DNA from: Betaproteobacteria bacterium
Lineage (GTDB): Bacteria > Pseudomonadota > Gammaproteobacteria > Burkholderiales > SG8-41
Assembly: GCA_900299145.1 (NCBI GenBank)
Contig: OMIN01000125.1
Coordinates: 1 to 43,036 of the forward strand
DNA length: 43,036 bases
Reading direction: 5' to 3'
Shown: piece after piece, positions 657-42,938 of the stretch
Position numbering within the stretch: position 1 is the stretch's first letter
How the letters are laid out: every line of letters starts with the position of its first letter
Notes under the pieces: model-generated
The model's database searches: none
The model's input: the letters and a program-made list of their open reading frames with translations, nothing else
What the model was told of the DNA's origin: nothing
Made by a program: the position numbers and the translations under genes

Positions 657-673
657 TATAAAACAAATAGTTA
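657..673 (+). repeat. Dispersed AT-rich motif, copy 1 (exact core, G variant)
   Basis: Core AAACAAATAGTTA at 661-673, preceded by TATA and followed by AGAGAA, then the amidase ATG at 680. It fills most of the short gap between the Bug stop and the amidase start. Its 18-bp extension AAACAAATAGTTAAGAGA is identical in copy 8 (30412-30429). Confidence 0.8.
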
Positions 674-679
674 AGAGAA

Positions 680-2317
680 ATGAGCGATTTACATTACCTG
701 ACACTCGCCGAATCCGCGGACCTGGTCCGCACCAAAAAACTTTCTCCGGTGGAACTCACCGATGCGCTGCTCAAACGCATCGAAACCTTCAACCCGCAAT
801 TGTCGGCCTTTATCACCATCACCGGCGATCTTGCGCGTGCACAGGCCAAACAGGCCGAGCAGGAGATCGCGCAAGGCAAATACCGAGGCCCGCTGCACGG
901 CGTGCCATTCGCGCTGAAAGACATTTACAACACGGCGGGCATTCTCACCTCTGGTGGCTCGAAGGTGTGCATCGACAACGTCCCCGCCAGTAACGCCACC
1001 ACCACGCAAAAGTTGCTGGATGCCGGAGCGGTACTGCTCGGCAAACTGCAAACGCATGAGTTCGCCCACGGCGGGCCGTCGTTTGATTTGCCGTGGCCGC
1101 CCGCGCGCAACCCGTGGAACCTCGCGCATTTCACCGGCGGTTCGTCGAGCGGGTCGGGTGCGGCACTTGCGGCGGGTTTGACGGCTGTGGCGCTAGGCTC
1201 TGACACCGGCGGCTCGATTCGCGGCCCGTCGTCGCACTGCGGCACCACCGGGTTGATGCCGACCTACGGGCTGGTGAGCCGTGCTGGCGTGATCCCCAAT
1301 TCGTTCACGTTTGATCACTGCGGCCCGATGGCGCGCACCGCTGAAGACTGCGCGATACTGCTGCAAGTACTCGCGGGTTACGACCCGCAGGATGGCGGCA
1401 GCACCGAACAGGCGATTCCCGATTACCGCGCGGCGCTGAAAAATTTTTCGGTCAAGGGTCTCAAAATCGGCGTGCTGCGCCACTATTGGGAAGAAGACCT
1501 GCCCGCGCACGAAGACCTGCGCGCGGCGATGGAAGAATCCATCGCCACTTTCAAGCGCATGGGCGCACAGGTTGAAGACTGCCGCGCACGGCCCATGATG
1601 GACGGCCTCGACATCAAGGTCATCATCGGTGAGTGTGAAATTTATTCGATCAATCAACACGATCTGCAAGCGCGCCCCGGCGATTTTGGCCGTGATTTTC
1701 TGGGCCGCGCGCTGCCGGCGTGCCTGTTTCAGGCGAGCGACTACGTGCAGGCACTGCGCGAGCACAAGCGTTACATGGCCGACATGCAGCCGCTGCTCGC
1801 AAAATACGACATTCTGCTGACCGCAGGCTTCGGCCCCGCGCCGCGTTTTGAGGATTACCGCGTCACCAATTTCTGGCGCAAGTCGAATGCGTTCACGCCT
1901 TCGAATGCCGCGCGCACGCCCTCCCTTGTGCTGTGCGGCGGCCTGTCGAAAGCGGGTTTACCGCTGGGCCTGCAACTCATCACGCGGCCCTTCAACGATG
2001 CGCAGCTGCTGGCCGCGGGCCACGCCTTTCAGCGTGAAACCGATTGGCACACGCGCCGCCCGCCGCTTGATCCGTCGGCAAAAGCGCCCGTGGTCGATAC
2101 GTCGGTGTTTGAGCCGAAGCCCGACGCCGATGCCGCCACGCGCGCTCTGGCCGAAACCATGGCGCGCCGCGCCGGGCTTAAACTGAACGAGCGGCAAATG
2201 GCGATCCTGCTCGAAAACGCCCCAGCCGCGCTCGACATGGCCAACCGCTTGCGCAAACCGCGCGCGCGGCTGGATGAACCATCGTCGACGTTCCGGTTTG
2301 CGGGAAGTCAAAAATAA
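680..2317 (+). CDS. Amidase-signature family hydrolase
   Basis: A cytoplasmic amidohydrolase of the amidase signature family, which cleaves C-N bonds of amides with a Ser-cisSer-Lys triad. At 545 residues it is of normal to slightly long size. The Lys lies in GVPFALKDIYN (K80), the cis-Ser in FTGGSSSGSG (about S155) and the nucleophile in GSDTGGSIRGPS (S179). The 24-residue spacing between the two serines is the family standard. There is no signal peptide. The ATG at 680 follows a weak purine stretch (AAGAGAA), inside the tail of the dispersed motif. It sits between a Bug receptor gene (29 bp upstream) and a small exported protein that begins at its stop codon, which suggests a transport-plus-hydrolysis unit. 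Substrate unknown; GatA is unlikely because gatB and gatC are absent nearby. Confidence 0.9.
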   Translation: MSDLHYLTLAESADLVRTKKLSPVELTDALLKRIETFNPQLSAFITITGDLARAQAKQAEQEIAQGKYRGPLHGVPFALKDIYNTAGILTSGGSKVCIDNVPASNATTTQKLLDAGAVLLGKLQTHEFAHGGPSFDLPWPPARNPWNLAHFTGGSSSGSGAALAAGLTAVALGSDTGGSIRGPSSHCGTTGLMPTYGLVSRAGVIPNSFTFDHCGPMARTAEDCAILLQVLAGYDPQDGGSTEQAIPDYRAALKNFSVKGLKIGVLRHYWEEDLPAHEDLRAAMEESIATFKRMGAQVEDCRARPMMDGLDIKVIIGECEIYSINQHDLQARPGDFGRDFLGRALPACLFQASDYVQALREHKRYMADMQPLLAKYDILLTAGFGPAPRFEDYRVTNFWRKSNAFTPSNAARTPSLVLCGGLSKAGLPLGLQLITRPFNDAQLLAAGHAFQRETDWHTRRPPLDPSAKAPVVDTSVFEPKPDADAATRALAETMARRAGLKLNERQMAILLENAPAALDMANRLRKPRARLDEPSSTFRFAGSQK

Positions 2318-2320
2318 TTG

Positions 2321-2341
2321 AATAAAAACAAATACTTACAA
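2321..2341 (+). repeat. Dispersed AT-rich motif, copy 2 (exact core, C variant)
   Basis: Core AAACAAATACTTA at 2326-2338 within AATAAAAACAAATACTTAC. It begins 4 bp after the amidase stop and ends next to the ATG at 2342. If translation began at the TTG at 2318, this copy would be read as codons for N-K-N-K-Y-L. Confidence 0.8.
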
Positions 2342-2731
2342 ATGCTTTCCGTCAGAGCATCTCGCGCCGCCGCGCTCGCTGGCGTGCTAATGCTGCCGCT
2401 GGGCGCACCGCCCTGGGCGCAAACGCCCGAGTCAACGCGCCTCGCCATCCTGCGCGACATCAACGCCGACGGCGCGCTGATTGCACTGGCGCTGCACTGC
2501 AAGCACGCGCCCGATGACGTCAATCGCCTTGGCGACAAACTCGAAACGCTGACCCTGGCGCGCGCGAAGGAACAGGCCGTCGCGCTCGACGCCAACACCT
2601 ATCACGAAGCCGCGCGCGACGGCTTCATGCACATGCGCGAAGTGCTGGCCGTGGCAATGCCCGCCGAAGATACCTATCGCACGCAGTGCGCGGAGGTGGC
2701 GGAGCGGGTTGGCAAGGCGATGGCACGCTGA
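2342..2731 (+). CDS. Small exported protein of unknown function
   Basis: I do not recognise a family. The 129-residue product starts with a plausible Sec signal peptide (MLSVRASRAAALAGVLMLPL, likely cleavage near PPWAQ), so it is probably periplasmic. The mature part is mostly helical by composition and has two cysteines, one in ALHCKHAP and one in YRTQCAEV, that could pair in the periplasm. The frame extends upstream to a TTG at 2318. I prefer the ATG at 2342 because the TTG start would place the charged motif-derived residues NKNKYLQ before the signal peptide. Neither start has a good Shine-Dalgarno. The gene abuts the amidase and may be translated by coupling to it. Confidence 0.55.
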   Translation: MLSVRASRAAALAGVLMLPLGAPPWAQTPESTRLAILRDINADGALIALALHCKHAPDDVNRLGDKLETLTLARAKEQAVALDANTYHEAARDGFMHMREVLAVAMPAEDTYRTQCAEVAERVGKAMAR

Positions 2732-2791
2732 GTGCGGGTTAGCCACGCACCGGGATCGCGGTAGTTCTGTCCGCAAGGACGCGCCGCAGTT

Positions 2792-2870
2792 GTAGCCCGT
2801 AAGAAGCGCAGCGTATTACGGGTCAATGACTATCGCTGCCCCGTAATACGCTGCGCTCCTTACGGGCTAC
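2792..2870. repeat. REP-like imperfect inverted repeat
   Basis: Arms 2792-2822 and 2840-2870 are 31 bp each and pair with one mismatch around a 17-bp loop. The outer part of the left arm reads GTAGCCCGTAAG and the centre carries AAGCGCAGCGT. The organisation (GTAG, arm, AGCGNAGCG, reverse arm) is that of the abundant intergenic REP-like hairpins of proteobacteria. It lies at the 3' side of the minus-strand deacetylase gene that ends at 2892, so it could also act as its transcript-end structure. No T-tract follows. Confidence 0.8.
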
Positions 2871-2891
2871 GGGCTTCCCGTGAATAGCCTC

Positions 2892-3893
2892 TCAACACTG
2901 AATCGCCGCCACCGGAAACGGCGCGGGCTTCGATCCGGGCAGGTGTTGAGCAATGCTGGCGTACTGCCGCGCGCGAATTTCTGCCGCGCTGCCACCGGGG
3001 ATCGGATTCAGCTTTTCGATTTCCTCGAGTATCGGCGGCGGGCGGTCATCCACTGGCACGCCGTGCACCAGCGCCCACTTTTCGACCTGATGAATGAACT
3101 CCGGCGACACGCGCGGGGGTATTTCCGCGTTCATCGGGTCGGCCATGGCTTCTGCTAGTGACACAAATTGCACGCCGGCGGCTTCGAATTGATCGAGGAT
3201 TTCGTCGAGGCAATCACCGCCCAGCGGCGTGCCGTGAATCAGCCAGATATGCACCGGATCGCGCCCGTACACCGCGCGCGCGTTGGCCGCGTGCAGGCGC
3301 ATTTCGTGCATGGCGGTTTCAACGAAGGCACGGCGCAGATATTGGATGCCTTCACGGTCGTCTTTTTCCAGCGTGCGCCAGTACGCCGCCTGAAACCGTG
3401 AATCACGAAAGCCCACGCTCACCGGTACCGGCGTGTAGCCGTGCTTCGCCAGATACGCGCCGACGGCGGCCTGTTTATCGGCGGTGTCGCCCCACATATC
3501 GTTGCAGTAACGGAAATAGCGCTTGGGCGCACGTGCCGCCCAGCGCGCAATGATTTCCTCGGTGCGCTCGATGTCGCCGATGTAGGTTTGCGCATCCACC
3601 CAGTTGATGCTGGCGTGGTGATGCGTGTGATTGGCGACATGATGTCCGGCATCGCACCAGTGATCGAACACGCGCAACAGCTCCGGGTCGTCCTCGGCGG
3701 GCGCGGTGTTGGAAAAGGCAAAGGTGTCAGTGGCACGATGGCGTGCCAGCGCCTGCGTCATCGCGCGCGTGATACCGAGCGAAGTGTAGTTCTTCGGCAC
3801 CGGCACGCCGCGCCACAGCAGCATGTCGTCCATGGTGATGGCGAGTTTGACCGGGCCGAGGGGGGAGATAGGGTGGGTTGTTTGGGTGGTCAA
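2892..3893 (-). CDS. Polysaccharide deacetylase (CE4/NodB) family protein
   Basis: A metal-dependent deacetylase/amidohydrolase-fold protein of 333 residues without a signal peptide, so probably cytoplasmic and acting on a small substrate, not the wall. Motif 1 is LAITMDDM (D22/D23). Motif 2 is NHTHHHAS, giving the HTxxH metal pair H89/H93. Motif 3 is around YFRYCNDMWGD, and a late LIHGTPLGGD resembles motif 5. The start is a TTG at 3893 with an AGGA Shine-Dalgarno about 8 nt upstream on the minus strand; the next ATG would remove the strand carrying the catalytic Asp. It stands alone, flanked at 2792-2870 and 3941-4015 by two different REP-like hairpins. PuuE-like allantoinase or another NodB-domain hydrolase is possible. 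Confidence 0.8.
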   Translation of the reverse strand: MTTQTTHPISPLGPVKLAITMDDMLLWRGVPVPKNYTSLGITRAMTQALARHRATDTFAFSNTAPAEDDPELLRVFDHWCDAGHHVANHTHHHASINWVDAQTYIGDIERTEEIIARWAARAPKRYFRYCNDMWGDTADKQAAVGAYLAKHGYTPVPVSVGFRDSRFQAAYWRTLEKDDREGIQYLRRAFVETAMHEMRLHAANARAVYGRDPVHIWLIHGTPLGGDCLDEILDQFEAAGVQFVSLAEAMADPMNAEIPPRVSPEFIHQVEKWALVHGVPVDDRPPPILEEIEKLNPIPGGSAAEIRARQYASIAQHLPGSKPAPFPVAAIQC

Positions 3894-3940
3894 GGTGAAA
3901 TCCTGCGATGGGTTGGCGTAATCGAAAGGACTCCAATTTT

Positions 3941-4015
3941 CGTAGGGTGGGCAAAGCGTAGCGTGCCCACCGTCTGTGGCTTCCGCGTGGGCACAAGCAA
4001 CGCGCCCACCCTACG
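3941..4015. repeat. REP-like imperfect inverted repeat (GTAGGGTGGGC type)
   Basis: The left half, 3941-3970, starts CGTAGGGTGGGCAAAGCGT and the right half, 3987-4015, ends in its complement (GCCCACCCTACG). The outer 12 bp match perfectly and an inner GTGCCCAC/GTGGGCAC block also pairs. The centre AAAGCGTAGCGT resembles that of the 2792-2870 element, so both belong to the same structural type but have different arms. It lies between the deacetylase start and the end of the DUF4019-like gene. Confidence 0.75.
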
Positions 4016-4030
4016 CCTGCTTGTGCAAGT

Positions 4031-4501
4031 TCATGGCTGACGCGGGCCAATACTGTGGTGGTGCACTCTCCATGCGCCGCCGTCATCGACCACAATCACC
4101 CCTTGCAACACAGTACGATTGGCGAAGGTCGTCCGATAAGTAAATACCTGAAAATCGCCTGTCATCCCGCTCGGGAGTACTGTTGTCGACCGCACACTTT
4201 CAACAATCCGGTTCACGGGAGCGCCCAATGGGCGCATCTGAAATCCCATCAGATCTACAAACGTTTTCGAATCGTACATCGACTTGGTGGCCTTTGAGCT
4301 GCTGCTCCATGCCCGCGAAAAATCTCCTCGGTCTATCAGATCCAGCCATTCACGCGCCGCCATTTCCGCCCCTCTGCGGTCAGGTGGAGGCCATTGCTGT
4401 GTGCGCGGCTTCAACCACCAAATAACCGCACCGGCCAGCACGCATGCAGCGCCCAGTACCCACAAAATCATATTGCGTCGCTTATTCAAATCGAGGGGCA
4501 T
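4031..4501 (-). CDS. DUF4019-like membrane-anchored protein
   Basis: A 156-residue protein with one N-terminal membrane helix (about residues 10-31, NMILWVLGAACVLAGAVIWW) and a soluble, probably periplasmic domain. The domain opens with AAREWLDLIDRGDFSRAW and ends TVLQGVIVVDDGGAWRV. The AAxxWLxLxDxGDxxxxW opening is characteristic of the DUF4019 family (recalled, not searched), whose function is unknown. It starts at the ATG at 4501 without a convincing Shine-Dalgarno. It is co-oriented with the deacetylase, but a REP-like element separates them, so co-transcription is uncertain. Confidence 0.65.
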   Translation of the reverse strand: MPLDLNKRRNMILWVLGAACVLAGAVIWWLKPRTQQWPPPDRRGAEMAAREWLDLIDRGDFSRAWSSSSKATKSMYDSKTFVDLMGFQMRPLGAPVNRIVESVRSTTVLPSGMTGDFQVFTYRTTFANRTVLQGVIVVDDGGAWRVHHHSIGPRQP

Positions 4502-4569
4502 GACACTTTGTAGATACTGGCATTGGTAAACTGCATGATACCCCTCACCACTTAAGATTAAACGCTCCT

Positions 4570-6219
4570 TTACGTCGCCGTCTTGGTAAACCGAACAGTA
4601 ACCGCCCGCGCAGCGTCATCCGTAACCACATTCACCAGCGCCGGTTTGCCATTTTTAATGGCTTCCTTAGCGCGTTCTAAAGCTGGACGAATATCTTCCG
4701 GCTTGGTGACATGCTCACCATGACAACCTAAAGACTGCGCGAACTGGTCAAAGCGTGTGTAGCCGAGGTTGCGGCCCGGTTTTTCGCCTTTGGGGTCGGC
4801 CGTCCAGCCGCCGTTGAGACTGATGACGACGATGATGGGCAGCTTGTGGCGTGCTGCCGTGTCCAGCTCCATGCAGTTCAGGCCAAACGAGCCGTCGCCG
4901 TGCAGCACGACCACTTGTTTGTCCGGGAATGCAGTTTTGGCGCCGACGCCGAAGGGCATGCCCACGCCCATGGTGCCGAAGGTGCCGGAGTTAATGCGGT
5001 GGCGCGGCAGAAAAGTCGGGATGGACTGGCGGCCGAAGTTAAGAATTTCCTGTCCGTCAACCACCAGGATACCGTCACGGTCGATGAATTCCTTGATTTC
5101 CTTGCACAGGCGCAGCGGGTGGATGGGCGTGTTGCTGGTCGCCATGGCCTTTTCGGATTCCGGCGCTTTGAGATTTTCGATCTCCGAAAGCCGCCCGCGC
5201 CAACCGGCATAAAGCGCGGGTTTGAGGCGCGTGGCGCCCAGATCGAGCATTTGCCGCAGCACCATTTTGGCGTCGCCAAGGATGGCCACGTCCGCGCGTG
5301 GCGTGTTGCTGATTTCACCCGAATCGACATCGATGCGGATGATCTTGGCGTTGGCGGAAATGCGTGGCGGCTTGATGTGGCCGAACACGTAATTGAGACG
5401 TGTGCCGACGATGACCACGCAATCGGTTTCTTTCATTGCCGAGGAGCGCGCATTGAGGAAGGCCTGCGGATGGTCTTCTTCGAGCACGCCGCGGCCTTGC
5501 GGCGTGGTGTAGATGGGGATGCCCTTGCTCACGACTAACTCGCGCAGCTCGGCTTCCGCGCCCGACCACAGCACGCCGCTGCCGGAGAGGATCACCGGCT
5601 TTTGCGCCTTTTCCAATAGTTTCAATGCTTCTTCGATCAACGCCGGGTCGCCCTGCGGGCGCGCGCGCACGAGGGTTTTGTTGAAGTCGGGCCATACCAC
5701 TGTCGAGTCATCAATGGTGTTGTTGATGACGTCGGACGGCAGGTCAAGGTACACCGGGCCGGGCTTGCCGCTGATCGAGGCGCGGAAAGCCATGTCGATC
5801 AACTCGGGAATGCGCCGCGTTTCGTAAATGCGATTGGCCCATTTAGTGACGGGCTTCATGATGGCAAGCTGGTCGATCTCCTGAAACGCGCCGTTGTGAT
5901 ACTCGCCAATGGGGCTGGAGCCGCCAAAGGCCACCACAGGCACGCCGTCGATCAGCGCATTGGCAAGGCCGGTGGTGAGGTTGATCGCGCCCGGGCCGGA
6001 CGCGCCCAGGCACACACCGGGGAAATTTTTTGCGCGTGCATACGCCTGCGCCGCAAACGCCGCTGCCTGCTCGTGGCGCACGTCGATGGGCCGCACGCCA
6101 CGCTTGATGGCGGCGAGCAACGTATCGTTGATCGGCCCGCCCATGATGAAAAACATGTCCTTGACGCCGATGCGTTTGAGGGATTCGCCGACGAGATCGT
6201 TACCGGTGATGTTTGCCAT
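4570..6219 (-). CDS. Thiamine-diphosphate-dependent enzyme, acetolactate synthase / 2-hydroxyacyl-CoA lyase-like
   Basis: A 549-residue three-domain enzyme (Pyr, central, PP) that makes or breaks C-C bonds next to a carbonyl using thiamine diphosphate. The N-terminal catalytic Glu is in VRHEQAAAFAAQ (E50), and FLGASGPGAINLTTGLANA-type residues line the Pyr domain. The Mg-ThDP motif is LHGDGSFGLN through VVISLNGGW. The gene lies downstream of a CaiB/BaiF CoA-transferase on the same strand (214-bp gap), the arrangement expected for an acyl-CoA lyase or oxalyl-CoA decarboxylase. The region after GDG does not look like Oxalobacter Oxc, so 2-hydroxyacyl-CoA lyase-like is my preferred reading. Biosynthetic IlvB is less likely because no ilvN/ilvC follows. 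The ATG at 6219 has GGAAA upstream. Confidence 0.75.
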   Translation of the reverse strand: MANITGNDLVGESLKRIGVKDMFFIMGGPINDTLLAAIKRGVRPIDVRHEQAAAFAAQAYARAKNFPGVCLGASGPGAINLTTGLANALIDGVPVVAFGGSSPIGEYHNGAFQEIDQLAIMKPVTKWANRIYETRRIPELIDMAFRASISGKPGPVYLDLPSDVINNTIDDSTVVWPDFNKTLVRARPQGDPALIEEALKLLEKAQKPVILSGSGVLWSGAEAELRELVVSKGIPIYTTPQGRGVLEEDHPQAFLNARSSAMKETDCVVIVGTRLNYVFGHIKPPRISANAKIIRIDVDSGEISNTPRADVAILGDAKMVLRQMLDLGATRLKPALYAGWRGRLSEIENLKAPESEKAMATSNTPIHPLRLCKEIKEFIDRDGILVVDGQEILNFGRQSIPTFLPRHRINSGTFGTMGVGMPFGVGAKTAFPDKQVVVLHGDGSFGLNCMELDTAARHKLPIIVVISLNGGWTADPKGEKPGRNLGYTRFDQFAQSLGCHGEHVTKPEDIRPALERAKEAIKNGKPALVNVVTDDAARAVTVRFTKTAT

Positions 6220-6230
6220 TTTAAATTTCC

Positions 6231-6249
6231 TATTAAAAACAAATAGTTA
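6231..6249 (+). repeat. Dispersed AT-rich motif, copy 3 (exact core, G variant)
   Basis: Core AAACAAATAGTTA at 6237-6249 in TATTAAAAACAAATAGTTA, followed by TGATAG as in copy 4. It lies 18-30 bp upstream of the minus-strand ThDP-enzyme start but on the opposite strand, so it is inverted relative to that gene and would not be read as a leader in this orientation. Confidence 0.8.
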
Positions 6250-6279
6250 TGATAGTTTTACGATGCTGATCCACCAGCT

Positions 6280-6391
6280 CGTCATGCCAGCGAAAGCTGG
6301 CATCCAGTGCGTAAACCGCGGCGCGTAGCATCGCGTTCTTGCGACTGCGGCAAGGACTACAAACCGGGTTCCAGCTTCCGCTGGAACGACG
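6280..6391. repeat. Dispersed element with palindromic inverted ends
   Basis: The left unit 6280-6306 (CGTCATGCCAGCGAAAGCTGG) and right unit 6368-6391 (complement beginning CGTCGTTCCAGCGGAAGCTGG) are near-identical and face each other around a roughly 60-bp centre. Each unit is itself a small palindrome (CCAGC...GCTGG). This resembles the CGTCATTCCxGCGAAxGC intergenic repeats of many proteobacteria; a relative starts at 11326. It sits in the gap between the CoA-transferase and the ThDP enzyme. Confidence 0.65.
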
Positions 6392-6433
6392 GTGTTGGTA
6401 TGCGGCGTGCTCCGTGCTTAATACGATTTACGA

Positions 6434-7672: not shown

Positions 7673-7997
7673 GCGATTCCTTTCGGTCGAAAAATCAAAT
7701 CAGCTGCGGACAGGCCACTCGCATGGCACTGCCCGCACTAAGAAATTAAAACGGCGAAATGGCTATGGTTGAAGCAACAACAGGACGACGTGACGGTGAC
7801 GGTGAAGACCCTTTGCACAGCAACGGTGCGGGGCACCGGGGCTTCTGTTTCAATTCTTAATTCACTACCGCCCCTCATTCGAGTTTCATGATACTGCCAG
7901 ACGACTGGCGTGACAATGCGCGCGAGCCGCCAGCAAAATGACCTGGCCGAGTCGCAGTTTAAAATAGTATGCACACACGGCTTATCGGGATCTGACC
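7673..7997. other. Intergenic region between divergent genes
   Basis: A 325-bp divergent region separating the CoA-transferase start from a Bug gene start. It should contain promoters in both directions. I see a short GTGACG tandem (near 7790-7803) and an AT-rich stretch with TTTAAAATAGTATG at about 7959-7972 that could hold a -10 element for the Bug gene. There is no convincing -35, operator dyad or small ORF. Confidence 0.4.
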
Positions 7998-8990: not shown

Positions 8991-9049
8991 TCAGAGGGCT
9001 CAGCCGGATCAGCGGCGTTGGTTACCCCCTTGGTACCCTCCTTAGCACC

Positions 9050-10093: not shown

Positions 10094-10212
10094 GGTGTCC
10101 TCCTGGAACGGGCGGGGCATTGTGGCAGCGTGATGGCGGAAAGTCCATCAACCCCCGGCATGGGCCTATGCAATAATCGGTACATCAAAATCGGCAAATC
10201 AAGAATCAGCCC

Positions 10213-11205: not shown

Positions 11206-11221
11206 GTCTCCATAAAAAATT

Positions 11222-11240
11222 AAATAAAAACAAATACTTA
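11222..11240 (+). repeat. Dispersed AT-rich motif, copy 4 (exact core, C variant)
   Basis: Core AAACAAATACTTA at 11228-11240 in AAATAAAAACAAATACTTA, followed by TGATAT. It begins about 17 bp after the Bug stop codon and about 205 bp before the next gene, so it is a 3'-side copy and not a leader. Confidence 0.8.
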
Positions 11241-11325
11241 TGATATTCCCCTGAAGGCTCTGCCATGGGCTCGATGATCTTGGTGACACCGAAGGCGCTG
11301 ACATCAGTACGGATTAACTCCACCC

Positions 11326-18106: not shown

Positions 18107-19084
18107 ATGAAAAATATTCAATTAAAACAAATACTTACAACGATCCTGCTGGGCATGACCAACGCATTGCCATTGGCAGTGCTGGCGCAGACGTATCCCG
18201 CCAAGCCCGTACGCATGGTGGTGCCGTTCCCCGCCGGCGGTGGCGTGGATGTCACCGCGCGCATCCTCGCGCAGCGCCTTACCGATCGTGTTGGGCAATC
18301 GTTCATTGTTGAAAATCGCGCGGGGGCCTCCGGCATCATCGGCACGGAATTTGTCGCCAAGGCCGCGCCAGATGGCTACACGCTGCTCGTCGGCTCGCAA
18401 ACCACGCAGTGCGTGGTGCCTGCGATTTACAAGGCGAACTACAACCCGGCGCGCGATTTCGCGCCGATTACCGAAATCGCCAAATCGCCGATGCTGCTGC
18501 TGGTGCATCCCACACTGCCGGTGAAAACGGCGGGGGATCTGGTGAAGCTCGCCAAATCCAAACCCGGCGAACTCACCTTCGGTGCCGCGCCCGGCGCAAC
18601 CATCCACATGGCCGCCGAGCTCTTCAAAATCATGGCAAAAATCGACATGCGGCTGATCCCCTACAAGGGCGAAGGCCCGGCAATCGTCGATGTGATGGGC
18701 GGACAGGTGCTGCTGATGTTCTCAAACATCCCGGTGTCGCTGCCGCAAGTCAAAACAGGGCGGCTGCGCGTGGTGGCGGTAACCAGTGCGCAGCGCGTTG
18801 CAACCCTGCCGGAGGTGCCGACCATCGCTGAATCGGGTTTGCCCGGCTATGAAGCGGCGACGTGGTTCGGCTTCTTTGGCCCCGCCGCATTGCCGCGCGA
18901 CATCGTCAACAAACTCAATGCCGACGCCGTGGCGGGCCTGACACCGCCGGAAGTGAAAGAACGGCTCGCGGGTCAGGGCTACTTTGTGGTGGCAAGCGCG
19001 GTGGAGCCATTTACCGCGTTCGTCAACGCCGAAATTCCACGTTGGGCGAAGGTGGTCAAGGAAGCGAACGTCAAGCCGGAGTAA
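18107..19084 (+). CDS. Bug-family periplasmic solute-binding protein
   Basis: A 325-residue TctC-like receptor, second of a tandem pair. GGAGG at 18094-18098 inside the previous gene positions the ATG at 18107. The signal peptide (MKNIQLKQILTTILLGMTNA, cleavage near LAQ) is partly encoded by a dispersed-motif copy. YPAKPVRMVVPFPAGGGVDVTAR, VENRAGASGIIGTEF and AAPDGYTLLVG are the canonical lobe 1 set. Lobe 2 has FGAAPGATIHMAAELF in place of the usual SSGxG and IPYKGEGPAIVDVMGG. It is more canonical in lobe 1 than its neighbour, so the pair probably differs in ligand. It converges with the minus-strand Bug gene at 19169. Confidence 0.93.
   Translation: MKNIQLKQILTTILLGMTNALPLAVLAQTYPAKPVRMVVPFPAGGGVDVTARILAQRLTDRVGQSFIVENRAGASGIIGTEFVAKAAPDGYTLLVGSQTTQCVVPAIYKANYNPARDFAPITEIAKSPMLLLVHPTLPVKTAGDLVKLAKSKPGELTFGAAPGATIHMAAELFKIMAKIDMRLIPYKGEGPAIVDVMGGQVLLMFSNIPVSLPQVKTGRLRVVAVTSAQRVATLPEVPTIAESGLPGYEAATWFGFFGPAALPRDIVNKLNADAVAGLTPPEVKERLAGQGYFVVASAVEPFTAFVNAEIPRWAKVVKEANVKPE
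18122..18140 (+). repeat. Dispersed AT-rich motif, copy 6 (exact core, C variant, in coding sequence)
   Basis: Core AAACAAATACTTA at 18125-18137 followed by CAA. It is read as AAA CAA ATA CTT A, codons for K-Q-I-L-T in the signal peptide. The reading frame differs from that of copies 2 and 10. Confidence 0.75.
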
Positions 19085-20173: not shown

Positions 20174-20198
20174 TATGTCAGCTATCCAATAATAATGA

Positions 20199-20217
20199 TA
20201 TAAAACAGATACTTACG
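20199..20217 (+). repeat. Dispersed AT-rich motif, copy 7 (one mismatch, C variant)
   Basis: TATAAAACAGATACTTA, core AAACAGATACTTA at 20203-20215, with G for A at core position 6. It lies in the short region between the divergent Bug and diguanylate cyclase genes, in the same orientation as the cyclase. Confidence 0.65.
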
Positions 20218-20228
20218 AAAAACCTGCT

Positions 20229-21388: not shown

Positions 21389-22360
21389 TTACTTCTTCAG
21401 CAACGCGCCCCAGCGGGCAATTTCCGATTGCAGGAATTTGCCAAAGGCTTCGGGCGAACTGTGTTTGGCCTCCAAACCCATGTCACCAAAGCGCTTGCGA
21501 ATATCGGGGGCCGCGAGCGCAGCGCTGATTTCAGCGTTGAGTTTTTGCACCACCGCGCGCGGTGTGCCGGCGGGCGCAAACACGCCGCCCCAACTGGCGA
21601 AATCATAACCCGCCACGCCAGCTTCAGCGGCAGTAGGCAGATCGGGGAAAGCGGGATTGCGCTGCGGCGTGGTCACCGCCAGCGCGCGCAGGAGCCCGGC
21701 GCGGATATGCGGCGCGCCGGCGGCCAGCGGATCGATCATGTAGCTGATGCGATTGGCAATCAGATCCGGGTGAGCGGCGGAACTGCCCTTGTAGGGCACT
21801 TCGGTCATGTTCGCCAAGCCGCCCGCGGTTTGTGCGAACAGCAGCGTCGCCAGTTGCTGCGGACTGCCCAGGCCCGTGGTGCCGTAAGTCACCTTGCCGG
21901 TATTGCCGCGGATGAATTTCAGCAACTCGCCCAGCGTTTTGACCGGCGACTGCCCACTCACCACAAACACATACGGCGTCAGATGCGTCAACGATACCGG
22001 CGCGAAATCTTTCACCGGATCGAACGGCAAATCCGTCATCAGAATTTGTATCGTCGCCATGTTTGCCGCCGCCTGCAGCAGCGTGTAGCCGTCAGGCTCG
22101 GCCTTTGCCACAAGCGCCGCGCCCAGCGTGTTGGATGCACCGGGCCGGTTGTCGATGACGATCTGTTTGCCCATCGAAGCGGAAAGTCGTTCGCCCAGCA
22201 GCCGCGCCACGATATCGCTCGGCCCGCCGGTGGTGACGGGCACGACAAAGCGAATGCTCTTGGTGGGATACGCCTGCGCCAGTGCGGCTTGCGACATGAC
22301 AACCGGCGCCGCAGCCATCGCCGCCAGCATCCAAGCACTCATAAGTTTCTTGCGATACAT
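21389..22360 (-). CDS. Bug-family periplasmic solute-binding protein (tandem paralogue A)
   Basis: A 323-residue TctC-like receptor. Two ATGs lie six bases apart (22366 and 22360). The second is eight bases from AAGG and is preferred. The signal peptide is YRKKLMSAWMLAAMAAAPVV with cleavage near ALAQ. YPTKSIRFVVPVTTGGPSDIVAR, DNRPGASNTLGAALVA and PDGYTLLQAAAN are lobe 1. GTTGLGSPQQLATLL and TEVPYKGSSAAHPDLIAN are lobe 2. It is closely related to the gene 23 bp upstream: both share GGPSDIVARLLG, YGTTG/YGATG forms and GGVFAPAGTPRAVVQKLN. It is probably the second gene of a two-gene operon. Confidence 0.92.
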   Translation of the reverse strand: MYRKKLMSAWMLAAMAAAPVVMSQAALAQAYPTKSIRFVVPVTTGGPSDIVARLLGERLSASMGKQIVIDNRPGASNTLGAALVAKAEPDGYTLLQAAANMATIQILMTDLPFDPVKDFAPVSLTHLTPYVFVVSGQSPVKTLGELLKFIRGNTGKVTYGTTGLGSPQQLATLLFAQTAGGLANMTEVPYKGSSAAHPDLIANRISYMIDPLAAGAPHIRAGLLRALAVTTPQRNPAFPDLPTAAEAGVAGYDFASWGGVFAPAGTPRAVVQKLNAEISAALAAPDIRKRFGDMGLEAKHSSPEAFGKFLQSEIARWGALLKK

Positions 22361-22389
22361 ATCCATAACCTTTTGATTTAATTGAGTTT

Positions 22390-23364
22390 TTATGCCGGCT
22401 TTTTCAGCAGCGCACGCCAGCGGTTAATTTCCGATTGCAGAAACTTGCCGAATTCTTCAGGTGTACTGTGCCGGGTCACCAAACCCATGTCGGCGAAGCG
22501 CTTACGAATGTCCGGCAGCGCCAGCGCCGTGCCAATTTCCGAATTGAGCTTTTGCACCACCGCGCGCGGCGTGCCGGCGGGCGCGAATACGCCGCCCCAG
22601 CTCGCGAAATCGTAACCGGGCAGTACTTCCGCCGCAGCGGGCACATCGGGGAATGACGCATTACGCTGCGGTGTGCTCACTGCCAGCGCACGCAGCAACC
22701 CGCTGCGTATGTGCGGCGAGGCCGCTGCCAGCGGATCAATCATGAATGTAATGCGGTTGGCGATGAGATCAGGATGCGCGGGCGTGCTGCCCTTGTACTG
22801 CACCTCGGTCATGCCCGGCAAACCACCCGCACCCTGTATCAAGAGCAGCGTCGCCAGCTGGTGCGGGCTGCCGGTGCCGGTGGCGCCATAAGTAACTTTG
22901 CCGGGATTGGCCTTGATGAACTTGATCAACTCCGGCAGCGTTTTCACCGGCGATTGCGCGCTGACGGCAAACACATACGGCGTGATGTGCGTCATCGACA
23001 CCGCCGCAAAATCCTTTACCGCGTCAAACGGCATGTCCGGCAGCGTGACCGGATTGATCGACATGTTCGCCGCCGCCTGCAGCAACGTGTAGCCGTCAGG
23101 GTCGGCCTTCGCCACGATGTGCGAGCCGATGATTTGCGAAGCGCCGACGCGATTATCCACCACCACCTGTTTGCCCAACGCCTGCGTGAGTTTGTCGCCG
23201 AGGAGCCGCGCCACGATATCGCTCGGCCCGCCGGTGGGCGAAGGCACGATGACGCGAATATTCTTTACGGGATAAGCAGTCTGGCTGCTCGCCGTCTGCG
23301 GCAGCATCGCGGCACCGGCGGCACACGCAGCGATCAAGAACGGCCAATTCAACAAACGGCGCAT
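22390..23364 (-). CDS. Bug-family periplasmic solute-binding protein (tandem paralogue B)
   Basis: A 324-residue TctC-like receptor. The open frame extends to 23601 but the N-terminal extension has no receptor character. ATG 23364 is 8 nt from GAGGAG and begins a signal peptide (MRRLLNWPFLIAACAAGAAM). An ATG six bases upstream lies too close to the Shine-Dalgarno. YPVKNIRVIVPSPTGGPSDIVAR, DNRVGASQIIGSHIVA and PDGYTLLQAAANM are lobe 1. TEVQYKGSTPAHPDLIAN replaces the common HVPYKG. It is a tandem duplicate of the gene downstream, with the same gene length, start architecture and C-terminal block. It is divergent from the Bug gene at 23487. Confidence 0.92.
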   Translation of the reverse strand: MRRLLNWPFLIAACAAGAAMLPQTASSQTAYPVKNIRVIVPSPTGGPSDIVARLLGDKLTQALGKQVVVDNRVGASQIIGSHIVAKADPDGYTLLQAAANMSINPVTLPDMPFDAVKDFAAVSMTHITPYVFAVSAQSPVKTLPELIKFIKANPGKVTYGATGTGSPHQLATLLLIQGAGGLPGMTEVQYKGSTPAHPDLIANRITFMIDPLAAASPHIRSGLLRALAVSTPQRNASFPDVPAAAEVLPGYDFASWGGVFAPAGTPRAVVQKLNSEIGTALALPDIRKRFADMGLVTRHSTPEEFGKFLQSEINRWRALLKKPA

Positions 23365-33028: not shown

Positions 33029-33096
33029 TGGTGCATTCTCCCCAAAAAATTGTTGAGCAGTCTGGTAGTTTGGGCGCGGCGTAAGGACTCGGGACT

Positions 33097-33411: not shown

Positions 33412-33544
33412 TTGCGATATCCCGGTTTAACGACGGCCTGCCGATAAGAGCCTGTTGTCAGAGCCTGCATCTGGTGCGACTGCGCATGCAACTTCACTGC
33501 CAATGCGCGCGCTGCCGCACAAGAAACCGACTGCGTAACACCTG

Positions 33545-33562
33545 TAACTATTTGGTTTTATT
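33545..33562 (-). repeat. Dispersed AT-rich motif, copy 9 (one mismatch, G variant)
   Basis: On the minus strand the DNA reads AATAAAACCAAATAGTTA, with C for A at core position 3 (core 33557-33545). It lies about 48 bp after the stop of the FAD oxidoreductase, in the same orientation as that gene. Confidence 0.65.
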
Positions 33563-33604
33563 ATATTTTTATGAGCCACTCAAAAACACTCACAAGCACA
33601 CGGG

Positions 33605-39101: not shown

Positions 39102-40076
39102 TCAATCGAGTTTCAGACCCGCATCCTTGGCGACTTTGGCGTATTTCGCAATTTCGCGCTTGATATGCGCGGCAAAATCCTCGGACAGGCTGCCGACGGG
39201 TTCGGAGCCGTCGAGAGCAAAGCGCGGGCCGACATCGGGCGCTTTAAGTGCGTCGAGCACGGCACGATTAAGTTTGGCGAGCACAGGTTTGGGCAGCGCC
39301 GCCGGGGCGAGCATGCCATACCAGCCGTTAATGTCGAAACCTGGCAGCGCCGCCTCGGACAGCGTGGGCAGATCAGGCACGGCGCTGGAACGCTTCAACG
39401 TGCTCACCGCCAGCCAGCGCAACTTGCCGGCTTTCACGTGGGCGCTGGTGCTGATGATGGTGGCGAATTGCGAATGGATTTGCCCGCCGAGCATGTCGGT
39501 AATGCCAGGCGCGCCACCCTTGTAAGGCACGTGTATCCAGTTGACTTTGGCCATGGTCGCCAGCAGCGCACCGGATAAATGCGACAGCCCGGCGGTACCC
39601 GACGAACCGTAAGTATAAAAATTCGGCCTGGCACGGATGAGTTCAATAAAGTCGCGGGCACTCTTGGCGGGAATGCCAGCGTTGATGGTCAGGCAATACG
39701 GCTGCGAGGTCATTTGCGCCACGGGCGTGAAATCGCGCACGAGGTCGAAGGGCATTTTCTGCACGGCGGCGCTGACCGACACCGTGGCTGACATCAACAC
39801 CAGGGTATAGCCGTCAGGCGCCGCACGCTGGGTGATTTCAAGGCCAATGTTGCCGGAAGCGCCGGGGCGGTTGTCCACCACAACTTGCTGGCCGAGCAGT
39901 TCGCCCATTTTGCCGGCGACCGTGCGTGCGGTAATGTCGCTGCCCGCGCCGGGCTGGAACGGCACGATGAAGCGTATCGGGCGCGTGGGATAGTTTTGCG
40001 CGTTCGCCCCATGCGCCAGCGGCAAAGCCGCCAAGAAGAATGGAATTAAGTATTTGAATTTATTCATTTTTTTCAT
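39102..40076 (-). CDS. Bug-family periplasmic solute-binding protein
   Basis: A 324-residue TctC-like receptor. The signal peptide starts MKKMNKFKYLIPFFLAALPL with cleavage near NAQN. The ATG at 40067 is an alternative, and neither has a good Shine-Dalgarno. YPTRPIRFIVPFQPGAGSDITAR, VDNRPGASGNIGLEI and AAPDGYTLVLMSA form lobe 1. GSSGTAGLSHLSGALL and IHVPYKGGAPGITDMLGGQ form lobe 2. It heads an apparent unit with the MmgE/PrpD gene, so its ligand may be that enzyme's substrate. A TATAAT-like box lies at 40154-40149 on the minus strand, but without a clear -35. Confidence 0.92.
   Translation of the reverse strand: MKKMNKFKYLIPFFLAALPLAHGANAQNYPTRPIRFIVPFQPGAGSDITARTVAGKMGELLGQQVVVDNRPGASGNIGLEITQRAAPDGYTLVLMSATVSVSAAVQKMPFDLVRDFTPVAQMTSQPYCLTINAGIPAKSARDFIELIRARPNFYTYGSSGTAGLSHLSGALLATMAKVNWIHVPYKGGAPGITDMLGGQIHSQFATIISTSAHVKAGKLRWLAVSTLKRSSAVPDLPTLSEAALPGFDINGWYGMLAPAALPKPVLAKLNRAVLDALKAPDVGPRFALDGSEPVGSLSEDFAAHIKREIAKYAKVAKDAGLKLD
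40047..40064 (-). repeat. Dispersed AT-rich motif, degenerate copy in Bug signal peptide (two mismatches)
   Basis: On the minus strand AATAAATTCAAATACTTA aligns with the consensus AATAAAAACAAATACTTA, differing at two bases. It is read as N-K-F-K-Y-L in the N-terminal region of the Bug protein, the same frame as in copy 2. It may be a true copy, or only an AT-rich lysine-tyrosine stretch. Confidence 0.45.
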
Positions 40077-40276
40077 AAGGTGCCGCACTGAAACGCCGGC
40101 AACCCTGCGGACGAATTGCAAACCACACAGCGCGGAATAGTGCGGCGAATTATAGCGCCGCTGTCAACGTGCCCGTTGTGTCCGCCGGACGTGCGCGGTT
40201 TAATCGGCGGAAGCTCTGGGGGCATATAAATGTGCCGTGATAAATGAATTGAAATGGATTGAACGAGGGCAATCGG

Positions 40277-41315: not shown

Positions 41316-41834
41316 GTGCGTCCGGGAATCGCCTTACGCGCGGCTGCGTGCTCGACGCCGCCACTCGAATCCCATCACGCGCGTATCGCCACGCCGTTCG
41401 CCGTGCTGGGCATACGCACGGTAGGCGAACTGGTGACGGACATCACCTACCTGCCGCGCGGCGCGGCGACGCTAGCGCCGTTGAATAAACTTGCGGCAAA
41501 AGCCTGCCGGCAAATCGAACGCTATCTCGACGATCCGTGCTATCGCTTCACGCTGCCATTCGACTATCGCGGCAGCGAATTTCAGTGCCGGGTGTGGCGC
41601 GAGATCGCAAAAATTTCCGCAGGAAAAACAAACACTTACAAAGAAGTCGCGCTGCGCTTGCACAGTGCGCCACGGCCGGTCGGCGGCGCTTGCGGCAAAA
41701 ACCGGCTGCCGTTGCTGATTCCGTGCCACCGCGTGCTCGCGGCCAACGGCATTGGCGGTTTCATGCACGCACGCGCTGGCGATCCGATCAGCATCAAGCG
41801 CTGGCTGCTGGCGCACGAGGGTGTGCATGTCTGA
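41316..41834 (+). CDS. ogt: Methylated-DNA--protein-cysteine methyltransferase
   Basis: A 172-residue suicide repair protein that removes alkyl groups from O6-guanine in DNA. The active site is LLIPCHRVLAANG (C137). FQCRVWREIAKISAGKTNTYKEVA is the DNA-binding helix region, and GGACGKNRLPL precedes the active site, with NR where NP is usual. DPISIKRWLLAHEG is the typical C-terminus. GTG 41316 is one base after the Bug stop; a TTG at 41295 would overlap that gene. The GKTNTYKEV segment coincides with a dispersed-motif copy in the DNA. It overlaps the xerD start by 8 bp, so the two are probably co-translated. Confidence 0.88.
   Translation: MRPGIALRAAACSTPPLESHHARIATPFAVLGIRTVGELVTDITYLPRGAATLAPLNKLAAKACRQIERYLDDPCYRFTLPFDYRGSEFQCRVWREIAKISAGKTNTYKEVALRLHSAPRPVGGACGKNRLPLLIPCHRVLAANGIGGFMHARAGDPISIKRWLLAHEGVHV
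41624..41641 (+). repeat. Dispersed AT-rich motif, copy 10 (one mismatch, inside ogt)
   Basis: Core AAACAAACACTTA at 41626-41638 followed by CAAAG. It is read as AA ACA AAC ACT TA, a third reading frame compared with copies 2 and 6. It lies within the DNA-binding region of the methyltransferase. Confidence 0.5.
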
Positions 41835-42753
41835 CGCCGCCGCTGCATCTGGCTTAGTGTCTGAAACGGCAGCGCTGATCGATGAATTTTGTGACGCACT
41901 GTGGCTGGAGGACGGCCTTGCGCGCAACACACTGGATGCCTATCGCCGGGATCTCGCGCAATTTGCGCAGTGGTTGCACGCGCAGCGCGGGCGCGAAATG
42001 CTGGCGGCGGATCATGGCGATCTGCAAAGTTACCTCGCGCACCAGTTTCGCAAGAAGACGCGCGCGACCAGTGCGGCGCGGCTGCTGTCGAGCCTGAAGC
42101 GGCTCTACCGCTGGCTGATCCGGCAAAATCGCATCAAAACCGATCCGACGCTCAATATCGACGCGCCCAAACTGCCGCGTACGCTGCCGAAAAGCCTCAC
42201 CGAGGCTGATGTTGAAAATCTGCTCGCAGCGCCCGACGTTGAAACGCCACGCGGTGAACGTGACCGCGCCATGCTTGAAGTGCTGTATGCCAGCGGCCTC
42301 AGAGTCTCCGAACTGGTGACGCTGAAGCTGCCGCAGGTGAGTCAGGACATGGGCGTGGTGCGCGTATTGGGCAAAGGCTCGAAGGAGCGGCTGGTGCCGC
42401 TGGGCGAGGAGGCGCTGGCGCGGGTAAAGGGCTATATTGCCAGCGCACGCCCGGCTTTACTGGCGGGGCAGAACAGCGATGATCTTTTTGTCACGGCGCG
42501 AGGCGGCGCGATGACGCGGCAGGCGTTCTGGCAGATCATCAAGCGTTACGCCATGCAGGCCGGCCTTAAAAGCACGATATCGCCGCACGTGTTGCGCCAC
42601 GCATTCGCCACGCACCTGCTGAACCATGGCGCGGATTTGCGCGTGGTGCAGTTACTGTTGGGTCACTCGGATATTTCAACCACGCAGATCTACACGCATG
42701 TCGCGCGCGAGCGGCTAAAGCAGTTGCACGCGCAGCATCATCCGCGCGGTTGA
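41827..42753 (+). CDS. xerD: Tyrosine recombinase XerD
   Basis: A 308-residue tyrosine recombinase that with XerC resolves chromosome dimers at dif. The N-terminal SAM-like domain covers about 15-105 (EFCDALWLEDGLARNTLDAY). The catalytic set is complete: R159 in SGLRVSEL, K183 in GKGSKERLVP, H254 and R257 in PHVLRHAFATH, H280 in LLLGHSDIS and Y289 in TQIYTHV. The frame extends to 41752, but the ATG at 41827 overlaps the ogt end by 8 bp and gives normal XerD length. A phage integrase is unlikely, because there is no attachment site or phage gene nearby and it sits next to ogt. Confidence 0.93.
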   Translation: MSDAAAASGLVSETAALIDEFCDALWLEDGLARNTLDAYRRDLAQFAQWLHAQRGREMLAADHGDLQSYLAHQFRKKTRATSAARLLSSLKRLYRWLIRQNRIKTDPTLNIDAPKLPRTLPKSLTEADVENLLAAPDVETPRGERDRAMLEVLYASGLRVSELVTLKLPQVSQDMGVVRVLGKGSKERLVPLGEEALARVKGYIASARPALLAGQNSDDLFVTARGGAMTRQAFWQIIKRYAMQAGLKSTISPHVLRHAFATHLLNHGADLRVVQLLLGHSDISTTQIYTHVARERLKQLHAQHHPRG

Positions 42754-42826
42754 TCCGCAAGACACGTTTAGCGTTGCACGCTGCGCGCCGTGAAATATCA
42801 CCGTATCAATTGCGTCCTGCCGCCAG

Positions 42827-42894
42827 CGCATTGTCAGCGCAATGCGGGCTTGCGCGTTATTGGACGCGCCGGGGCTGCTCTCGGTGAGCAGTCC
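42827..42894 (+). other. Two hairpins in the xerD downstream region
   Basis: CGCATTG/CAATGCG (42827-42846, 6-nt loop) and GGGCTGCTC/GAGCAGTCC (42872-42894, 5-nt loop) lie between xerD and the next gene. The second is followed, after 16 bases, by GTTTTTAAAC and not by an immediate T-tract, so it is at best a weak terminator. It may instead be a 5' leader structure of the next gene. Confidence 0.35.
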
Positions 42895-42938
42895 AACCTT
42901 ACAACTTATTGTTTTTAAACAAATATTCGGAGATATTC

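Follow-up and report, generated by a model that had tools for sequence, protein, structure and literature searches.

A genome-wide array of predicted IHF sites in a betaproteobacterial lineage without detected HU

REP/BIME elements contain IHF sites and are repeated in intergenic DNA, and even spacing has reportedly been found for uptake sequences by Karlin et al., as cited in another paper. Integration host factor (IHF), the IhfA-IhfB heterodimer, is a protein that bends DNA sharply. Its binding sites have been characterized by a 35-bp extent, the pattern WATCARNNNNTTR, and, for most of the strongest among them, an A-tract upstream (PMC8421141, PMC9519438, PMC9820253), and IHF of E. coli is stated to act at around 300 consensus sites (PMC8421141). 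For the uptake sequences of Pasteurellaceae (USS) and Neisseriaceae (DUS), a further paper describes hundreds to thousands of copies, a preference for non-coding DNA, both orientations without bias, and significant even spacing (PMC1939737).

In this article, a 13-bp AT-rich motif is analyzed in a stretch of 43,036 nucleotides (the window; contig OMIN01000125.1) and in the 5.51-Mb Burkholderiales genome from which it comes (G000), together with relatives of the same genus and family. The copies are probably IHF sites that form an array of bends organizing the nucleoid.

Copies in the window and across the source genome

All eleven copies listed in the preliminary description, which allowed up to two mismatches, are present in the window where and as described, as are the 18-bp identity between copies 1 and 8 and the usual flanks, WATAAAA on the left and YRA on the right. 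A 37-bp profile at a threshold of at least 14 bits yields 13 distinct sites, namely these eleven and two further ones; the reported copies are the best-spelled subset of a broader site class. The predicted sites are as follows, with spans from -14 to +19 of the IHF-type site and bits from the G000 profile.

647..680, forward strand: IHF-type site, core AAACAAATAGTTA at 661-673, 29.4 bits; flanked by an ORF truncated at the contig start (15-650, by eye presumably TctC-like) and by an amidase gene
2312..2345, forward strand: IHF-type site, core AAACAAATACTTA at 2326-2338, 53.3 bits; directly 3' of the amidase stop codon
6223..6256, forward strand: IHF-type site, core AAACAAATAGTTA at 6237-6249, 44.8 bits; antisense to, and just upstream of, a TPP-enzyme gene (4570-6219, reverse strand)
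11214..11247, forward strand: IHF-type site, core AAACAAATACTTA at 11228-11240, 55.4 bits; 3' of a TctC stop codon
13236..13269, forward strand: IHF-type site, core AAACAAGGAGTTA at 13250-13262, 31.0 bits; the GGAG at its N4 may serve the following gene (start 13265) as Shine-Dalgarno sequence
18111..18144, forward strand: IHF-type site, core AAACAAATACTTA at 18125-18137, 51.8 bits; within the initial codons of a TctC gene (18107-19084), by eye presumably a signal peptide
20189..20222, forward strand: IHF-type site, core AAACAGATACTTA at 20203-20215 with G at the R position, 43.5 bits; divergent gap according to a simple gene caller
22359..22392, reverse strand: IHF-type site absent from the preliminary list, core AATCAAAAGGTTA, 38.6 bits
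30398..30431, forward strand: IHF-type site, core AAACAAATAGTTA at 30412-30424, 28.6 bits; about 14 bp 3' of a called stop codon (small, uncertain ORF)
33538..33571, reverse strand: IHF-type site, core AACCAAATAGTTA at 33545-33557, 40.1 bits; 3' of the stop codon of a FAD-binding gene (33605-35203, reverse strand)
40040..40073, reverse strand: IHF-type site, core ATTCAAATACTTA at 40047-40059, 40.1 bits; within the initial codons of a TctC gene (39102-40121, reverse strand; called start 40076)
41612..41645, forward strand: weaker IHF-type site, core AAACAAACACTTA at 41626-41638, 23.2 bits; within a called ORF
42895..42928, reverse strand: IHF-type site absent from the preliminary list, core AAACAATAAGTTG with G at the last R position, 25.7 bits
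42903-42936, forward strand: weaker profile call overlapping the preceding site

A word with A or T at 11 of 13 positions, lying within AT-rich flanks, might be a compositional artefact of AT-rich intergenic DNA, a reading to which next to no probability is assigned and which the counts refute: shuffles of the window contain 0.32 sites on average and three at most, so that none of 100 reaches eleven at up to two mismatches; the genome-wide count, proposed in the preliminary description along with a comparison of orthologous loci, gives 491 exact copies (260 + 231) vs none of the reversed word in 5.51 Mb; and the G000 profile at 20 bits or more finds 120 sites in 420 kb vs 0 in the reversed DNA control. 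The left part of the motif, AATAAAAACAAATA, is the top 14-mer in 844 kb of G000 with 42 copies, and the first unrelated 14-mer in the same ranking has 17. Genome-wide over-representation of this kind is expected of an uptake sequence and fits the IHF reading equally.

The two 13-mers in forward orientation do not occur in the open-licence literature searched, and their reverse complements occur in two open-licence papers of unrelated title. The preliminary description knew of no element with this sequence; the site type, WATCARNNNNTTR with an A-tract, has however been described. The 18-mer AATAAAAACAAATASTTA is found in 117 IMG/VR stretches; viral carriage was set aside as a reading, a sequence so AT-rich being taken to be common by chance in AT-rich viral DNA. 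A scan of genome collections returned, among the matches listed, many MAGs of uncultured Burkholderiales and Betaproteobacteria and scattered others; MAG titles naming Bordetella parapertussis also stand among the matches listed, and this naming is doubtful.

Site anatomy and its correspondence to IHF

The full motif, for which a flank consensus was built from 79 sites, extends over about 35 bp and consists of an A-tract at -14 to -9, eight AT-rich nucleotides, A(A/T)CA(A/G)-N4-TT(A/G), and YR, beyond which conservation fades into unrelated flanks. The offset of the A-tract is identical in logos seeded only on the right half in G000 (n=43), G006 (n=61), and G019 (n=18), and we take it to be exactly that of the lambda H' site. 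The core pattern, the free N4, A or G at the R positions, the upstream A-tract, and the length of about 35 bp are all shared with the IHF sites known from E. coli and phage lambda, and the identification of the copies as predicted IHF sites is well supported at the level of sequence. Two candidates of the preliminary description, a signal for chromosome organization and a site bound by a regulator or other protein, pointed in the right direction, the motif matching an IHF site; its very short mobile element is not supported.

The spelling of the sites was compared at 12 bits or more, with profiles fitted on the DNA that they scanned. The 126 sites of G000 (control 6) comprise AAACAAn4TTA (58), AATCAAn4TTA (19), AAACAGn4TTA (12), AATCAGn4TTA (9), TTG forms (7), AWCATn4TTA (5), and 16 others; the 109 sites of the congener G006 (control 2) comprise AATCAAn4TTA (66), AATCAGn4TTA (10), AATCAAn4TTG (6), and 27 others. 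When the profiles were swapped between the two genomes, 115 sites vs 4 in the control and 121 vs 2 were obtained. The third core base, T in the published consensus, is preferentially A in G000 (83 A, 42 T, and 1 C), so that only about a third of its sites match strictly at this base, the other core positions agreeing, and some G000 sites carry T at an R position. In the window, AATCAAAAGGTTA (22359..22392) fits the published consensus at all specified positions and scores 40.6 bits with a generic profile. In G006, the same array takes the form AATCAAATACTTA, which agrees perfectly with the IHF consensus and is the top-scoring spaced word pair of that genome. The original word occurs there in 12 copies, but the relaxed IHF pattern has 447 matches vs 5 in reversed DNA. 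Unbiased dyad counts place AATC-n5-CTTA and ATCA-n4-CTTA at the top in G006; by the same counts, the motif ranks seventh in G000, after coding words, and is not leading in G019 or G009.

The generic profile at 20 bits gives 246 sites vs 6 in the control in 844 kb of G000, and 7 vs 4 in 250 kb of E. coli K-12; in those 250 kb, the combination of A-tract and consensus words shows no excess (0 vs 1 reversed). The roughly 300 IHF sites of E. coli contrast with about 1,600 near-consensus, evenly spaced predicted sites in G000, approximately one per 3.1 to 3.6 kb.

Placement, spacing, and persistence at orthologous loci

The G000 sites are chiefly intergenic, often 3' of stop codons, and occur in both orientations, with 37 of 122 lying within called genes. 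Gene-regulatory sites, at which IHF or a dedicated regulator would act at promoters or gene starts, are an improbable explanation, for which one site class speaks: of the 13 in-gene G000 sites that lie no more than 30 bp from a called start, 11 are in sense orientation, the start-overlapping sites including start codons and apparent signal-peptide codons. The site also ends in an AT-rich tail, YRAWWWWT, that could be similar to a -10 element. Divergent gaps are, however, the poorest intergenic class, with 0.92 sites per kb in G000 vs 2.28 in tandem and 2.01 in convergent gaps, a contrast that is smaller in G006 (1.21, 1.85, and 1.69). Where a tandem gap measures 120 bp or more, the site is nearer to the upstream stop codon in 17 of 25 cases (G000) and 24 of 32 (G006). 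Orientation is mixed, tandem gaps holding 38 sites in the same and 18 in the opposite orientation in G000 and 28 and 25 in G006, and sites also occur in convergent gaps and between apparently co-transcribed genes. In addition, 1,600 sites would be very many for a regulon. A promoter-only reading was rejected on the poverty of divergent gaps and the many sites 3' of stop codons. A sigma-70 consensus scan of positions 1-20000 of the window found 8 sites vs 6.0 in shuffles.

The coefficient of variation (CV) of the spacing is 0.59 in G000 vs 0.86 in an intergenic null and 0.49 in G006 vs 0.82, with none of 1000 nulls as even in either genome. Even spacing is not found in a third genome, G010, where 45 sites on one long contig give a CV of 1.17 vs 0.96 for a uniform null, a value that is high in part because of a 40-kb lower-GC stretch without sites; other gaps there also exceed 9 kb, and gaps below 1 kb number 1 of 42 on this contig (contig 1) vs 14% in the null. 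Short stretches pooled from eight relatives give a CV of 0.75 vs 0.90 for a uniform null, and 41 of 1000 simulations are as low.

Even spacing alone does not show an architectural role because it has also been reported for DNA uptake sequences, and a molecular drive of the uptake type is the chief rival for the number and evenness of the sites, although an unlikely one. A competence receptor would favor DNA with a 35-bp bendable sequence, copies would accumulate through transformation in DNA that tolerates them, and the likeness to IHF sites would be a coincidence or reflect a shared need for bendable DNA. In copy number, non-coding preference, use of both orientations, and, for G000 and G006, even spacing, the array resembles USS and DUS as described (PMC1939737), and exact copies range widely in number across the genus, from 0 to 491. 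Unlike that of USS and DUS, the variation of the motif follows IHF rules, N4 being free, base 3 W, and bases 6 and 13 R; the A-tract offset is constant in the three genomes compared, and the drive is further opposed by the persistence of orthologous sites and by the HU distribution described below. To our knowledge, the motif is unrelated in sequence to the USS and DUS cores.

Junctions were compared across the genus at a 16-bit cut-off; a 12-bit profile gives 17 reversed vs 119 real hits in 514 kb, at which level single weak sites are uncertain. Conservation at orthologous loci was borne out at a junction that we take to be aroA-cmk: a predicted site is present in 11 of 11 genomes of the genus for which this junction was available, and also in G018. 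Orthologous sites retain a locus-specific N4 and do not converge on the commonest spelling, and sites at one locus are spelled differently between species.

A mobile element of very small size, a REP-like element, or remnants of either would be a very improbable source of the copies. The aroA-cmk-like junction has gaps of 33-55 bp with the site vs 8, 13, 20, and 252 bp in four genomes that lack it, and at another junction the gap is 117-165 bp in three site-bearing genus genomes vs less than 30 bp in eight without a site, inverted arrays of short repeats flanking the site there. At other junctions, however, the gap is no longer where the site is present; none of 264 sites has another high-copy 14-mer (at least 12 copies) within 120 bp, and inverted repeats in the flanks occur at about the rate of shifted controls (12-mers in G000, 2 of 261 vs 0.7%). 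The fading of conservation into unrelated flanks and the species-specific spelling at a given place also oppose such an element, and it was rejected, defined ends, inverted repeats, and a shared repeat context being absent apart from the inverted short-repeat arrays of a few exceptional loci. IHF-type sites repeated between genes are common to REP/BIME and this array, which, unlike REP/BIME, has no excess of flanking inverted or high-copy repeats, the site itself being the repeat.

IHF, HU, and nucleoid organization

Both IHF subunits are present in G000, with IhfB at 155.9 bits (cut-off 115) and IhfA at 159.3 bits (cut-off 111); they are its sole two PF00216 matches, and their best solved relatives are IHF structures, namely the single-chain 2IIF and 2IIE and chains B (3.1e-32) and A (2.1e-38) of 1IHF. 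HU gave no hit in G000. Within the family, HU was detected in 0 of 39 array-rich vs 22 of 35 other genomes. Absence of HU does not suffice for an array: thirteen of these 35 array-poor genomes also lack an HU hit, including the congener G009, whose third DNABII protein is by eye presumably IhfB-like rather than HU. The link between HU absence and the array is a one-way association with few lineages behind it, and the strict proposal that HU loss causes the array is weakened by G009 and by two groups, g9 (4 of 4 genomes) and g4 (4 of 5), in which both the HU hit and the array are missing. PF00216 counts alone are misleading, since extra matches can be IHF paralogs, and the zero matches obtained with PF00216 in G010 and G049 are taken as draft or first-look misses.

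From these observations we infer IHF binding in the cell and an architectural role of the array. Each site would be bound by IHF and folded by about 160 degrees, and evenly placed bends would pin the tips of plectonemes or delimit small topological domains, the sites acting as a DNA-encoded nucleoid scaffold rather than as promoter switches in a lineage without detected HU. An evenly spaced IHF array in an HU-less lineage is unreported in the titles and abstract openings of open-licence PMC papers among the matches listed. A more tentative and rather doubtful extension is that, in a clade without HU, IHF has become the main DNABII architectural protein, and a sequence-encoded lattice of about 1,600 sharp, evenly spaced IHF bends (approximately 3 kb apart) has evolved that fixes the positions of plectonemes.

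If this were true, a chromosome-wide folding map would be legible from sequence, with species dialects (AAACAA in G000 and AATCAA in G006), and newly gained DNA would be marked by the absence of the lattice. The extent to which the folding of a bacterial chromosome is written in its sequence would become directly testable in such a lineage, with the two IHF subunits as the only DNABII proteins detected and about 1,600 strong, evenly spaced predicted sites. The site may also be useful as a simple marker for DNA that these genomes have acquired recently. The one-way association of the array with missing HU points to a natural experiment in which a sequence-directed architectural protein replaces a largely non-specific one.

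Identity of the dispersed word

The preliminary description listed 11 copies of a 13-bp AT-rich word in the window, all of which lay at the stated positions in a search allowing up to two mismatches (11 sites, against a mean of 0.32 in shuffled sequence; the count of 11 was not reached in any of 100 shuffles). The genome-wide count it suggested yielded 491 exact copies in the 5.51-Mb draft genome (G000; 158 contigs, 99.69% complete), of which the window forms contig C125 with its 43,036 bases, split by strand into 260 and 231, against none of the word read backwards. Exact copies range from 0 to 433 in 13 congeneric genomes, number 249 in G018 (genus g6) and 90 in G019 (genus g7), range from 0 to 11 in the remaining nine non-congeneric genomes of the family, and amount to 0 or 1 in each of 16 genomes from other families.

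When 79 copies carrying no more than one mismatch were taken from 420 kb of G000 and aligned, they showed a conserved span of about -14 to +20 around the core, comprising an A-rich stretch (-14 to -9), nTcAATwA (-8 to -1), AAACAAATASTTA (0 to 12), YR (13-14) and AT-rich sequence beyond. The A-tract offset is the same as in the lambda H' site. The core can be aligned with the published consensus of integration host factor (IHF), WATCARNNNNTTR, with A rather than T at base 3 in most G000 copies; the sources for this consensus describe a 35-bp site and an upstream A-tract in most of the strongest sites (PMC8421141, PMC9519438, PMC9820253).

A relaxed pattern built from the IHF consensus, AAA-N10-AWCAA-N4-TTR, matched 437 times in G000 (8 for the reversed pattern) and 447 times in the congener G006 (5 reversed), where the original word has only 12 copies. 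In a motif-free enumeration of spaced 4-mer pairs, the list from 391 kb of G006 was headed by AATC-n5-CTTA (64 observed, 3.5 expected, 2 reversed) and ATCA-n4-CTTA (67 observed, 4.3 expected, 0 reversed); the best motif pair of G000 ranked seventh, after coding words, and first of the AT-rich pairs, and in G019 and the congener G009 motif pairs were not at the top. Logos seeded on the right half alone recovered the A-tract and TCAAT block in G000, G006 and G019.

Profiles of 37 bp, fitted on the same DNA that was later scanned and applied with a cut-off of 20 bits, identified 120 sites in the 420 kb of G000 (about 1,570 when scaled to the genome). For G006 the yield was 97 sites in 391 kb, and reversed DNA gave none in either genome. 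When the profiles were swapped at 12 bits, that of G006 found 121 sites in G000 (control 2) and that of G000 found 115 in G006 (control 4). The 126 sites of G000 at 12 bits (control 6) were spelled AAACAA (58), AATCAA (19), AAACAG (12) and AATCAG (9), all with TTA, besides TTG (7), AWCAT (5) and 16 remaining; their third core base was A in 83, T in 42 and C in 1, and that of the 109 G006 sites (control 2) was T in 101, A in 7 and G in 1. A generic profile was applied across genomes at 20 bits. In 844 kb of G000 it gave 246 matches versus 6 for the reversed control; the figures were 100 versus 0 in G006, 29 versus 0 in 200 kb of G019, 7 versus 4 in 250 kb of E. coli K-12, and 1 versus 0 in 84 kb of relatives bearing the DNABII protein HU (G015, G017, G022).

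Placement, conservation and spacing of the sites

With genes called by a simple script, whose starts are uncertain, 122 G000 sites were assigned to tandem gaps (56), convergent gaps (14), divergent gaps (12), called genes (37) and contig edges (3), at densities per kb of 2.28 (tandem), 2.01 (convergent), 0.92 (divergent) and 0.10 (called genes); the corresponding densities for 98 G006 sites were 1.85, 1.69, 1.21 and 0.05. Within tandem gaps of at least 120 bp, sites lay closer to the upstream stop in 17/25 cases (G000) and 24/32 (G006), and orientation in tandem gaps was the same in 38 and opposite in 18 (G000), or 28 and 25 (G006).

The window also holds a very dense paralog cluster, with at least 11 TctC-type solute receptors within 43 kb, and a long imperfect inverted repeat at about 2790-2880 (gtagcccgtaagaagcgcagcgtattacggg and its complement) that is REP-like by eye.

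TctC-type (PF03401) genes in the window
7998-8990
10213-11205
12220-13227
16933-18102
18107-19084, IHF-type site across first codons
19169-20173
21389-22366
22390-23601
32018-33127
39102-40121, IHF-type site across first codons
40259-41314

In the ihfB region, one junction, whose genes are putatively aroA and cmk to judge by their size and position, carries a site in all 11 genus genomes for which it was available (cores AATCATATACTTA, AAACATAAGGTTA, AAACAAATAGTTA, AAACAATAGGTTA, AAACAATAAATTA, AAACAATAACTTA, AATCAGATACTTA, AAACAAGTAGTTA, AAACAACAACTTA, AAACAATAGTTTA and AAACAATTATTTA). G018, which belongs to a different genus, likewise has a site adjoining the same gene (AAACATATACTTA). Across all these cores, changes are confined to base 3, N4 and the first R position, where three have T. 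None was found at this junction in HU-bearing G015, G017 and G022 or HU-less G019. Elsewhere, sites are gained or lost between species; one junction measures 117-165 bp in three genus genomes with the site versus under 30 bp in eight without, and at other junctions the presence of a site goes with no greater gap length.

Some sites are flanked on both sides by short units arrayed in inverted orientation. The units are GTGAGGC-like in G000 (L331 15217-15336, contig C97) and G006 (L349 727-857) and GTGAACG-like in the congener G007 (L357 7844-8013 and 6619-6789), and the gaps that hold them are much longer than in congeners without the site. Such a combination looks like a small hairpin element, a setting atypical of the sites generally.

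The sites are spaced more evenly than positions drawn at random from intergenic DNA, both in G000 (CV 0.59 versus 0.86, sd 0.05; 232 gaps averaging 3,143 bp over 844 kb) and in G006 (0.49 versus 0.82, sd 0.07; 80 gaps averaging 3,342 bp), with none of 1000 intergenic nulls as even in either genome at three thresholds. Short stretches pooled from eight relatives (66 sites, 50 gaps) gave a CV of 0.75 versus 0.90 for a uniform null (41/1000 as low), with 6 gaps under 1 kb versus 12.8 (8/1000 as few). Contig 1 of G010 (300 kb, 45 sites) counts against even spacing (CV 1.17 versus uniform null 0.96), although only 1/42 gaps is under 1 kb versus 14% in the null. Its largest gap, 40 kb at about 56-96 kb (L412-L414; GC 0.548, no sites at 20 bits), is possibly recently gained DNA; in the remaining gaps longer than 9 kb, GC is 0.575-0.617.

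The strongest rival explanation is an uptake-type drive, since uptake sequences are likewise reported (PMC1939737) as evenly spaced and biased towards non-coding DNA, as the G000 sites are. The variation pattern, however, is IHF-like, and N4 is locus-specific, both of which would make such a drive less probable.

IHF and HU proteins across the family

G000 has two matches to the DNABII family (PF00216), identified by NCBIfam equivalog models as IhfB (155.9 bits, cut-off 115) and IhfA (159.3, cut-off 111) and named likewise by the closest solved chains. A search with the G022 HU protein found HU in 22/74 family genomes (E up to 1e-22, one partial). When array-rich genomes were defined as having at least 50 relaxed-pattern matches and five times the reversed control, a threshold chosen after the counts had been inspected, 39/74 qualified, and HU was found in 0/39 of these versus 22/35 of the others. 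Neither array nor HU was found in thirteen genomes, several of them incomplete drafts (G009, four of genus g4, four of genus g9, G071, G078, G083 and G084); among these, G009 had 57 relaxed-pattern matches versus 15 reversed and G083 21 versus 0. The association between the array and HU absence holds in one direction only, and few lineages contribute to it. By eye, G009 (48% GC, few profile sites) has a second IhfB-like protein (L333, contig C113, about 578-844), and G021 has two extra IhfA-like proteins (L342, L343) with no HU match.

Among 250 genomes of the order, the threshold was, by our reading of the counts, reached by none of the 243 outside the family, the nearest being G234 (126 versus 29 reversed) and G115 (63 versus 14). 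DNABII genes were counted in 22 genomes that belong to the order but not to the family, and each had at least three matches. G234 (family f45) shows its 126 matches in 1.8 Mb despite three DNABII genes.

Novelty and proposed role of the array

The preliminary description knew of no described element with this sequence; the IHF site type is in fact already known, but a genome-wide, near-consensus, evenly spaced IHF array in an HU-less clade appeared in none of the matches listed from the open-licence PMC literature. According to PMC8421141 and PMC9519438, IHF introduces a bend of about 160 degrees at its sites and, in simulations, pins plectonemes and splits DNA into topological domains. We infer that the evenly spaced strong sites, predicted to be bound by IHF, would most likely act as an architectural array rather than a regulon, because they are evenly spaced, strong and sparsest in divergent gaps, because they lie behind stop codons and also between adjacent co-oriented genes, and because they occur in genomes without detected HU.
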